This document shows, piece after piece, positions 14,345-47,935 of a stretch of 64,000 bases of DNA. Below the pieces are notes generated by a model. It ran no database searches. It was given only the letters and a program-made list of their open reading frames with translations, and was not told where the DNA came from. The DNA lies in assembly GCA_961205875.1 (NCBI GenBank), contig OY540821.1:3162001-3226000 (forward strand), in the 5' to 3' direction. Every line of letters begins with the position of its first letter. The stretch's first letter is position 1. Origin of the DNA: Sialis fuliginosa. Its lineage: Eukaryota; Arthropoda; Insecta; Megaloptera; Sialidae. The position numbers and the translations under genes were made by a program.

Positions 14345-14655
14345 GAATGTAAACAAACTACGTGAATATAGCAACAGACAACTTTTTAAATGTCTTTAAC
14401 TTAAAAAAATCGAAATCATTAATTTTTTTTATTGTGACACATTCTTCCGGAAGTTGGTTGGACTCGAATGAACATAGAAACAGATAAACTTAAAATTGTT
14501 GGTCAAAATATTTATATAAATTTACGTGACTATAGCAATAGACAACTTTTTAAATGTCTGGTAATTTTTACCTGAAAAATTCGAAATTGTGAATTTTTTA
14601 TTGCAACACATTCTTCCGGAAGTTGGTTGAAAATTTTGGGTCAAAAACTCATTGC
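14345..14655 (+). repeat. Tandem duplication, two units of about 170 bp
   Basis: ACGTGA.TATAGCAA.AGACA, CTTTTTAAATGTCT and ACACATTCTTCCGGAAGTTG occur in order at 14360-14455 and 14523-14625. No coding frame is maintained through the duplication. Confidence 0.65.
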
Positions 14656-44343: not shown

Positions 44344-45169
44344 CAGTGCGTTCATGATGAAAGGAACAAATTCGTTTAAAATTCAGGTAATTATTTTGTA
44401 CAAAAACGCTCGGACACGTCGATTAGTATTTTTAGTTACGGATTTTTTGACATAAGAAAATTGTATACAGGCAGTCTCAAGAAGAACATTAAACAGTCAT
44501 CATTGATTTTTTTTAATGGAACACTCTATATATTATGCCATTTTTGAATTGTACGGTGTATTCTGAACACTTTTTTTACAACATACCATATCTCTAAAAT
44601 CAGCGGTTTTCGGAATAATGATGTTTGAAAATTGACATTTTGAAATACACACAAGTCAAATAAAATGTTTAAATTGAAAAAAATACACCTTGAACATTTT
44701 TTTAAAAGCCAACAAAAACATCCTGGTATTTCAAAAAAAAACATTGAACTTTTTTCATTCTTTTATTTTTCCTTTTTTCTTTTTTTTGCAATAGCAGGTT
44801 GTTTTTGTTGGCTTTTAAAAAAATGTTCAAGGTGTTTTTGTTCAATTTAAACATTTTATTTGACTTGTGTGTATTTTAAAATGTCAATTTTCAAACGTCA
44901 TTATTCCGAAAATCGCTGATTTTAGAGATATGATATGTTGTACAAAAAGTGTTCAGAATACACCGTACAATTCAAAAATGGCATAATATATAGAGTGTTC
45001 CATTAAAAAAAATCAATGATGACTGTATCTTCTGGAGACTTCCTGTATACAATTTTCTTATGTCAAAAAATCCGTAACTAAAAATACTAATCGACGGGTC
45101 CGAGCGTTTTTCCACAAAATAATTACCTGAATTTTAAACGAATTTGTTCCTTTCATCATGAACGCACTG
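44344..45169. mobile_element. 826-bp snapback element with about 390-bp arms, TA target
   Basis: Left CAGTGCGTTCATGATGAAAG and right CTTTCATCATGAACGCACTG are perfect inverses flanked by TA (44342-44343, 45170-45171). The inverse match continues through GAACAAATTCGTTTAAAATT, ATAATATATAGAGTGTTCC and AAAAGCCAACAAAAACA.CCTG almost to the poly-T centre near 44770. Ends beginning CAGTGCG with TA targets fit Tc1/mariner-type MITEs; this is family-level inference. No transposase. If transcribed it would fold into one very long hairpin. Confidence 0.9.
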
Positions 45170-45477
45170 TATAAAATAAGTAAAACTTTATTTATCGGAA
45201 TATATGATAACATGCATGAAAATCTTTACTTAAAACAAGAAAAAATAATAAAGATAGTGGTACAAGTCTTGGCCGCTTTAAGAGCAAGGTATACTGTTTT
45301 TTTTTTGGAATTGATGGACTTATTTTTTGTAATTCTCATGAAGTGACACACTATTAAAACAAGTACCTCTTTATTAAATTAACAAAGTCTGCAAATATGT
45401 TTATGTAATGGACAAAATAAAACCAGTAATGAGCACCGAATGATGGACATTTGTTAAGGATTACAAAATGATAATTA

Positions 45478-45862
45478 TAGTCCGAGAGGTAAGCTACAAA
45501 ATATTGCAACTATATACTTTATAAAGGCTGATTTTTTGAAATTACGTCACATTTGTGGTGTAGAGATACAGCCTGCCGTCAGTCAGCTAGTTTCATTAGC
45601 GTTTGGCGCAGGGGCGGCTTTATTTTTGTAAAAATGTAGCTGCAACTATTTTATAAAATCTGAAAATTTATTTGTAAGCAGTATACTAAGTAAGAACTCC
45701 TTTTATCATAATCAGCCTTCAAAAGCTTGCAACCGGGCGCGTCAGCAGCGCGTTTTACTGACTGACGGCAGGCTGTATCTCTACACCACAAATGTGACGT
45801 AATATCAAAAAATCAGCCTTTACAAAGTAGTTGCAATATTTTGTCGCTCACCTCCCCGACTA
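45478..45862. mobile_element. Harbinger-like MITE, 385 bp, TTA duplication
   Basis: Starts TAGTCCGAGAGGT and ends ACCTCCCCGACTA, with arms of about 110 bp containing CAAAATATTGCAACTA, ATTACGTCACATTTGTGGTG and GTAGAGATACAGCCTGCCG and the inverses. TTA lies at 45475-45477 and 45863-45865; other F4 copies have a single TTA- or GTA-type site (GATAAGTACTACGAC), so the empty site is visible. A half-copy is at 51700. Confidence 0.9.
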
Positions 45863-46139
45863 TTACTACGACACTAAAGTTATAAAATAAAGAATCCTAA
45901 ATTTTGAAACAATATAAAGGAGATGCTGTGATAATATAATAATTAATAAATAGATTATACTAATAATTAGTTTAAATGTCCACCATTTTGACACCCATTG
46001 ACCGATTGTCATCAAATTAAGTTCTTTTAGAGTTAAGTGTCCAAAGATTATGATTCGGTAATGGAAATTATAAAATATCAACACATATTTCTAATTTAGT
46101 ACATTTATTTAAACAATAGTCCAACACTGGGGTATTATC

Positions 46140-47904
46140 CAAGGTATATAAAGACAAGGTAGTCTCAACAATTCCTTGACCAATCAGCGTTGGTGCGGGA
46201 ATTGACGTCACCTGGGGGATCTATTCAATTGTCATAAATTTTTAATAGAATATTAATTACAAAAAATTCCTTTATTTATTCTTGTTTTCGTATTTTTTGA
46301 TATTTTAGCAACACACATGGGCGTAGCCAGGATTTTGTTCAGGGGGGGGCAAAATTTTTTTTTTTGAAACCGATTGGTCGGCGTGTTTTGCCTAGTACCC
46401 CGAGGTAATAAGAGAGAGGTGAGCAAAAAAAGCTCTCACATTATTATGGTAACCTTACCTAAAAAATTTTATAAAAATTTTTTTTAATAAAAATATTTCA
46501 ATGGGCCTCACATTTTTGGCGTCTGGGACCTCGAAATGTGTAAGAACGACTCTGATAAATGGCCATTAATGTAAACAAAATTTGGTAAATCCTTTTTTTC
46601 TTAAATTAAATGCTATAGTTTCGTTGCAACTTGGAACTTTGGCTCGTGAAAATCCGTGATTTTCATTAACTTAATAAATCAATTTTTTGGTGTGTTCTTG
46701 ATTATTATCGAGGAATTATAAAAGAGCCATGAAAAAATTAACATTTTCATTATTTATTATATATCTAGATAGGTGCGCAAAAAGTAACAATGAAAAGTCA
46801 TTCTTTTTTTCATTTCTTCTTTTATTTTCGCCACATTTTTTTCAATCAATTAATTAATGTATGTGCAATAATGTGCATATCTTTTTGAAGACAAAATCCT
46901 CTACAAAAATGTACTCTACGTTGTTATTTTGGTGTTTTTATTTTTATTTATAATTTTTTTATTTAATGTAAAAAATCGATCTAATTTGAATTGATAATAC
47001 ACATGTATAGTTGAAATATCAAAAAAACTTCTTTTTTTTGTATAAAAAGGATAAAAAGGCAATGACATGAATAGTTTACCCGCTTTAACAAGAGATTGCA
47101 ATAAAAAAAAACAATGATATTTAAATTTTCGAATCTAAAAATGTCAATATTTAGCCAATGAACTGATTCATTTGTTACTTAGTTCACGAGCTAGGGGGAG
47201 GGGCAAGCGTCCCCCCTTGCCCATGCTTTGTGGGTAGTTATTTTAACACAAAACACAGTTTTCACTGTTGCCAACACTGCGACCTTTGCCTTTAGGTGTT
47301 TTTATTTTATTTTTAATTTTCCCTGATATTTTAGTTTACATGGAAAAGTAAAAGATTGTGTTTAAAAAACTTTGATATTTGATTTTCTGGATCCAAAATA
47401 TAAATTTATGTTCAAAAATCCAATGGACATCATAGAAGTCTAGAAATATCCCTGTTTGAGCAATAATACTGATTTACTTATTACTTTTTGTCCACAAGCT
47501 AGGGGGGGGCAAGCGCCCCCCCCTGCCCCACCCTGGCTACGCCCATGGCAACACATACAATCAAATAAGTACAAATTCAACATTGCAAAATCATAAAGTG
47601 CTGTCAGAATCATATAACGTATTGCCAACTTAAGAATAGTAAAAATGATGCTTCCCGAATTGACCAAATTGTCTTTGACAGCTTTTTTATGATTTTACAA
47701 TGTTGAATTTGTACTTATTTAATAGTATGTGTTGTTAAAATATCAAAAAAATACGAAAACAAGAATAAATAAAGGAATTTTTTGTAATTAATATTCTATT
47801 AAAAATTTATGACATTTGAATAGATCCCCCAGGTGACGTCAATTCCCGCGCCAACGCTGATTGGTCAAGGAATTGTTGAGACTACCTTGTCTTTATATAC
47901 CTTG
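46140..47904. mobile_element. Foldback element with 228-bp arms, 9-bp duplication (MULE-like), split by hAT
   Basis: Ends CAAGGTATATAAAGACAAGG and CCTTGTCTTTATATACCTTG. The flanks GGTATTATC (46131-46139, 47905-47913) are a perfect 9-bp duplication, though 7 or 11 bp is possible because the termini overlap palindromically. The left arm is cut by the hAT-like element (46316-47547) and resumes at 47556-47608. The right arm is 47678-47904; the loop is about 69 bp. Without the hAT it is 525 bp. Long arms with a 9-bp duplication suggest a Mutator-like origin (inference). Ends carry TTGACCAATCAGC (CCAAT-type) and TGACGTCA.C motifs as in F11. Confidence 0.85.
46316..47547. mobile_element. Non-autonomous hAT-like element, 1232 bp, perfect 8-bp duplication
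   Basis: Perfect 16-bp inverted ends CATGGGCGTAGCCAGG and CCTGGCTACGCCCATG, flanked on both sides by GCAACACA (46308-46315, 47548-47555). CA..TG ends and 8-bp duplication are hAT hallmarks. The empty site can be read from the opposite arm of the foldback (GTTGTTAAAATATC, its inverse). Internal GGGGGGGCAAGCGCCCCCCC-like palindromes lie near the right end and a related one near 47195. No transposase frame is intact. Confidence 0.9.
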
Positions 47905-47935
47905 GGTATTATCCAAGATTGATTTTAGTACCTTA

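Follow-up and report, generated by a model that had tools for sequence, protein, structure and literature searches.

A nest of four non-coding DNA transposons in Sialis fuliginosa and the partial order of their insertions

The nesting of transposons and its use for ordering their activity are established. Transposition-in-transposition (TinT) and interruption analysis (PMC3014933, PMC2517846) likewise take nested insertions as evidence on element history, there as statistics over whole genomes and here in one nest read base by base. For the superfamilies that bear on the present locus, the described target-site duplications (TSDs) are 8 bp for hAT, 3 bp (TAA or TTA) for PIF/Harbinger and 7-12 bp, together with long terminal inverted repeats (TIRs), for Mutator (PMC10741241); Tc1/mariner elements target TA (PMC2874221), and Muta1 is described as making TSDs of 8-9 bp (PMC5225508). 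The four elements reported below match these TSDs and differ from the elements described there in that limited searches linked no transposase to them. The account of Tm1, a Mutator/Foldback system of root-knot nematodes, describes foldback-type ends, 9-bp TSDs and MITE-like members, as found here, and also a case in which an inverted-repeat element of 936 bp, with 7-bp TSDs, has inserted into such an element, a nesting like that of the present locus (PMC3169594). The Tm1 ends, as that account presents them, are composite, with tandem repeats of 13-15 bp and 7-bp end motifs that lack symmetry, and show no consensus at the target (PMC3169594); the foldback described here, unlike Tm1, is a near-palindrome of ~524 bp, no repeats of that sort were seen in it, and its TSDs have a purine-first, pyrimidine-last bias.

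In a 64,000-nt stretch of Sialis fuliginosa contig OY540821.1 (the whole stretch analysed, hereafter the window) four non-coding DNA transposons lie nested one in another at 45251-47933. An F4 MITE holds a 385-bp Harbinger-like MITE and, separately, a 525-bp foldback, and the left arm of the foldback holds a 1232-bp hAT-like element, so that the foldback now spans 46140-47904. The initial annotation had proposed these four elements and their three internal duplications at these positions, and direct reading together with exact searches bears them out:

45249-45250, no strand: TA, left flank of F4 (TA precedes 25 of 26 F4 TIR ends, taken from the window and from loci L002-L068, L009 and L039 excluded)
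45251-45477, plus: F4 MITE, left part, ending with the left TTA (aligned with 11 other copies; TIR AGGTACTGGCACCAG)
45475-45477, plus: left TTA duplication of the Harbinger-like MITE (first T is G in other F4 copies)
45478-45862, plus: Harbinger-like MITE, 385 bp (TIR TAGTCCGAGAGGT.../...ACCTCCCCGACTA; alignment of 13 copies)
45863-45865, plus: right TTA duplication of the Harbinger-like MITE (exact search)
45866-46139, plus: F4 MITE, middle part, ending with the left GGTATTATC (alignment to F4 copies)
46131-46139, plus: left 9-bp duplication GGTATTATC of the foldback (exact search, family TSD test)
46140-46315, plus: foldback, left arm, ending with the left GCAACACA (reverse-complement match to the right arm)
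46308-46315, plus: left 8-bp duplication GCAACACA (first base G; A in other foldbacks)
46316-47547, plus: hAT-like non-autonomous element, 1232 bp (TIR CATGGGCGTAGCCAGG; 8-bp TSDs in the family)
47548-47555, plus: right 8-bp duplication GCAACACA (G present here too)
47556-47904, plus: foldback, remainder, with inner stem, loop and right arm (inner stem complementarity, DNA folding)
47728-47735, minus: the 8-bp target in its right-arm version, undivided, ACAACACA (built-in empty site)
47905-47913, plus: right 9-bp duplication GGTATTATC (exact search, family TSD test)
47914-47933, plus: F4 MITE, terminal piece on the right (other copies show the family end CTGGTGCCAGTACCT)
47934-47935, plus: TA, right flank of F4 (direct reading, alignment)

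All four elements have TIRs, a TSD and many dispersed copies with differing flanks, and none has a transposase ORF, as is the case for MITEs and other non-autonomous TIR elements. MITEs are usually 50-800 bp long, according to the size range given in PMC6171319, which the 1232-bp hAT-like element exceeds. The nest is overlapped by no ORF longer than 75 aa; thus all four elements would have depended on transposases from elsewhere, acting in trans. All comparisons are with copies within one genome (392 Mb in 20 contigs, the window lying on C13 and having a GC content of ~30%), and the fetched copies of each family are those most similar to the query, a non-random sample.

Each insert was excised in silico together with one copy of its duplication, which brings the foldback to 525 bp and leaves the expected parent, as had been proposed: the rebuilt F4 aligns over both joins in single alignments, both with L005 and with copies in the window. 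The L005 alignment covers positions 352-875 of the reconstruction in one piece, from the first base of F4 to nearly the last; that of L004 spans the first join and most of the F4 middle part, and the F4 copies within the window cross one or both joins. The initial annotation had suggested alignment to copies 2, 3 and 4; the window contains seven further F4 matches. For the query 45251-45500, the best-scored 40 genome candidates all match, and a multiple alignment with 11 other copies places the family ends at AGGTACTGGCACCAG... and ...CTGGTGCCAGTACCT; the nest copy's own ends are worn. Other nests were met unsought: L006 has a different insert in its F4, and the foldback at L049 measures 1060 bp, not 524. 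To the left of F4, 77 bp from its flanking TA, the window also contains an 826-bp near-perfect hairpin (44344-45169) with outer arms ~97% complementary, ends CAGTGCGTTCATGATG and TA flanks, one arm of which is matched twice by L006, near its F4.

The duplications were examined both for their occurrence in the window and for their constancy within families. On either strand GGTATTATC occurs in the window only twice, at the two flanks of the foldback, and GCAACACA has one further occurrence, at 14603. A perfect 8-bp TSD is present at 25 of 30 hAT-like loci; imperfect ones are L026 (7/8), L030 (6/8) and L016 (3/8), and the 30 include L031, which gave a wrong pairing only (1/8), and L032, which has no complete end pair. 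The foldback family has a perfect 9-bp TSD at 26 of 30 loci, the others being L041, L044 and L047 (8/9 each) and L060 (3/9). In the Harbinger-like family the 3-bp flanks agree in 12 of 13 complete copies (10 TAA or TTA, one TAT, one TCT); 6 of the 18 fetched stretches yielded no complete end pair. The nest copies are counted in all three totals. Chance agreement was estimated by comparing the left flank of one copy with the right flank of another, including in this control, though not in the locus count, five extra hAT-like rows in which an end was paired wrongly with an internal site. Perfect matches arose in 0 of 1112 mismatched pairs for 8-mers, 0 of 870 for 9-mers and 52 of 156 for 3-mers; a 3-bp duplication is therefore weak individually, since most are TTA or TAA. 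Random recurrence of the duplications, which the initial annotation had named as grounds for abandoning its proposal, is contradicted by the zero controls for 8 and 9 bp and by TSD lengths that are constant within families. A shorter form of the hAT-like element, 994-997 bp long (e.g. L036-L038), is without approximately positions 892-1121 and keeps perfect 8-bp TSDs.

Two of the duplications hold a base that differs from other copies of the host element. The 8-bp target begins at foldback position 169 (window 46308), where all 28 other aligned foldbacks have A; the nest has G in both target copies, and the G therefore predates the hAT-like insertion. The right arm of the same foldback retains the target undivided (ACAACACA). 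Similarly, at the site of the first base of the TTA target, one alignment has G in 11 of 11 F4 copies and a second has G in 9 of 10, the tenth having A, so that T is found in 0 of 21 other copies; both TTA copies of the nest carry T, and the change therefore came first and created the Harbinger-type target. As judged from the other copies, the substitutions would have run from A to G and from G to T. The target of the foldback says less: all nine letters of GGTATTATC are found in L099 too and eight of them in L103, and the off-consensus T in its second half is shared by 4 of the 9 aligned F4 copies with a letter there (L096, L099, L102, L103).

Divergence gives a second, coarser view of the same order. 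From its family consensus the nest copy differs at 46 of 349 sites in the F4 right body (a figure somewhat inflated by flanking bases), at 10 of 376 in the Harbinger-like MITE, at 8 of 524 in the foldback (4 of them strictly private) and at 21 of 1222 in the hAT-like element. F4 is thus separated from the Harbinger-like MITE (p = 9e-8), the latter is not separated from the foldback (p = 0.24), and by consensus the hAT-like element gives no sign of being younger than the foldback (p = 0.84). However, the nest copy of the hAT-like element and its sister L010 have 33 alignment columns in common in which they are unlike other copies, and the two differ at only 6 of 1232 sites (0.5%). At these the nest copy alone is odd at 609 and has the minority state at 40, as do 4 of 21 others; at the remainder it carries the common state, and the hAT-like insertion therefore looks recent. 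Compared with the 8/524 of the foldback, the 2/1232 odd or minority sites give p = 0.0015, and a cautious count of all 6/1232 differences gives p = 0.037; strictly private sites (1/1232 against 4/524) give p = 0.030. The divergences support F4 as the oldest element and, through the one sister copy L010, the hAT-like insert as the youngest.

In each case the host predates the element inserted into it, and the partial order supported is F4, then the Harbinger-like MITE and the foldback (mutually unordered), then the hAT-like element. This is the order that the initial annotation had read from the nesting, and it is upheld by excision and alignment, by the TSDs of the families and by the base changes in two of the duplications. 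As an order by divergence it holds in part: F4 is oldest, and the foldback precedes the hAT-like element by way of L010 but not by the consensus comparison. Absolute ages would have to be inferred.

On TSD length and TIRs, F4 fits a Tc1/mariner-type element (TA at its ends), the 385-bp element fits PIF/Harbinger (3-bp TAA or TTA), the foldback Mutator and the 1232-bp element hAT (8-bp TSDs). The labels "Harbinger-like" and "hAT-like" of the initial annotation are consistent with these features, but limited searches, which covered hAT, P-superfamily and MULE domains, linked no transposase to any of the elements. The 22-base hAT-like end CATGGGCGTAGCCAGG has 322 exact copies in the genome; within 10 kb of the 100 of these that were compared, over the matching part of C1-C3, lay 0 of 62 hAT dimerisation domains (PF05699) and 0 of 16 P-superfamily domains (PF21787). 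hAT TIRs generally start with YARNG and the TIR of the element here starts with CATGG, a misfit that, as P elements also generate 8-bp TSDs, makes the P superfamily or another 8-bp-TSD superfamily a possible source. P-superfamily domains are indeed present in the genome (68 matches, seven with equal score and a 907-aa frame), and one, at C3:35976224, outside the set compared above, lies ~3 kb from a hAT-like copy (C3:35972169-35973162). That copy is complete in itself, however, and the proximity is probably chance, given the copy number; the genome has no fewer hAT dimerisation domains (150 scored matches of 613 candidates), and co-location, being nil for both domains, does not discriminate. 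Membership in a superfamily other than hAT is viewed as unlikely, though well short of far-fetched.

On C1 (L087), two TIR ends that face each other across 4.1 kb were considered as a candidate autonomous hAT-like partner, but they belong to two copies, in inverted orientation, of one and the same non-coding element. Among the matches listed for five strings of hAT-like TIR words in the literature (titles and the starts of abstracts), no such transposon appeared. The genome has other features of interest for these superfamilies. The seven equal-scoring PF21787 places are C1:33660016, C2:10265820, C2:30295683, C4:14786914, C5:17299576, C7:11070192 and C13:5786154. The 2.5 kb upstream of two of them (L104-L107) are 99.9-100% identical and contain large inverted repeats, with no boundary and no P-superfamily TIR seen there; these places suggest what may be a very recently active and rather long unit. 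Dozens of PF05699 places share one score (41.9 bits), a 113-aa frame and one stop, as a large uniform hAT-domain family; and at ~3.3-6.0 Mb C14 has many pieces of hAT and P-superfamily domains, including five hAT domains within 6.03-6.04 Mb.

The foldback is placed as MULE-like because of its 9-bp TSD and long arms. The arms form a 190-bp reverse-complement match, 95.8% identical, that runs 13 bases past the left end; an inner stem (47549-47597 with 47686-47734, 94% complementary) continues the hairpin, and the uninterrupted part folded as DNA gives z = -6.8. Of the 30 TSDs of L039-L068, 25 begin with G or A and 28 end with C or T, a symmetric target bias. Some foldbacks (L061, L048, C7:7060144 and C7:7060669) adjoin or lie near another foldback, which hints at local or end-to-end insertion. 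Mobilisation by a transposase other than a MULE is a doubtful alternative, which draws on the MULE places themselves: at 6 fetched places (L088-L093) of 10 PF10551 matches, ~4 kb each, no convincing arm match was seen, four places having none at E <= 0.001 and all six, at E <= 1, having only short ones among the matches listed, the best at about 0.001. Arms further out than the ~4 kb covered around each of these 6 of 10 places would escape such a comparison, however, and Mutator-type elements that combine long inverted arms and a 9-bp TSD are described in animals, in the account of Tm1 (PMC3169594), Muta1 making TSDs of 8-9 bp (PMC5225508). A MULE transposase is the preferred candidate. It is very improbable that the foldback, with its target bias and with no linked MULE found at the places covered, was moved by an undescribed type of transposase and that the nest records, in datable form, several transposase systems acting one after another.

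The nest almost certainly arose as non-autonomous DNA transposons inserted by cut and paste four times, one after another. As reconstructed from the sequence, F4 would have inserted first, at a TA, and would then have aged, a G-to-T change making a TTA at which the Harbinger-like MITE inserted, duplicating it. Independently, the foldback, probably mobilised by a MULE transposase, would have inserted with a 9-bp TSD at a target ending 20 bp from the right end of F4. Its left arm would later have acquired G for A, and the 1232-bp hAT-like element would have inserted there, duplicating the 8 bp with the G. Segmental copying of repeats is common and the comparison covers a single genome, but arrival of the block already nested, as a unit by duplication or gene conversion, is extremely hard to credit, as no second place common to all parts was found among the best-scored candidates (best 40 for each), and of 59 rebuilt target sites of foldbacks and hAT-like elements only 2, which are those of the nest itself, fall within one of five library families. 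The same count bears on whether foldback and hAT-like elements target F4 or each other: with only the nest's own 2 of 59 sites within the five local families there is no sign of targeting, in a test that demands one alignment over the join and may miss insertion in a worn F4 (the L031 site depends on wrongly paired ends, and L029 and L061 directly adjoin an F4 and a foldback).

In kind the nest is ordinary, a clean example of a common and well-known pattern, and alone it alters no view of transposon biology. Its value is as a clean local stratigraphy, in which host base changes present in both copies of a TSD order insertions with no need of a molecular clock; applied across the whole genome, such a reading could put the transposon families of this species in order.
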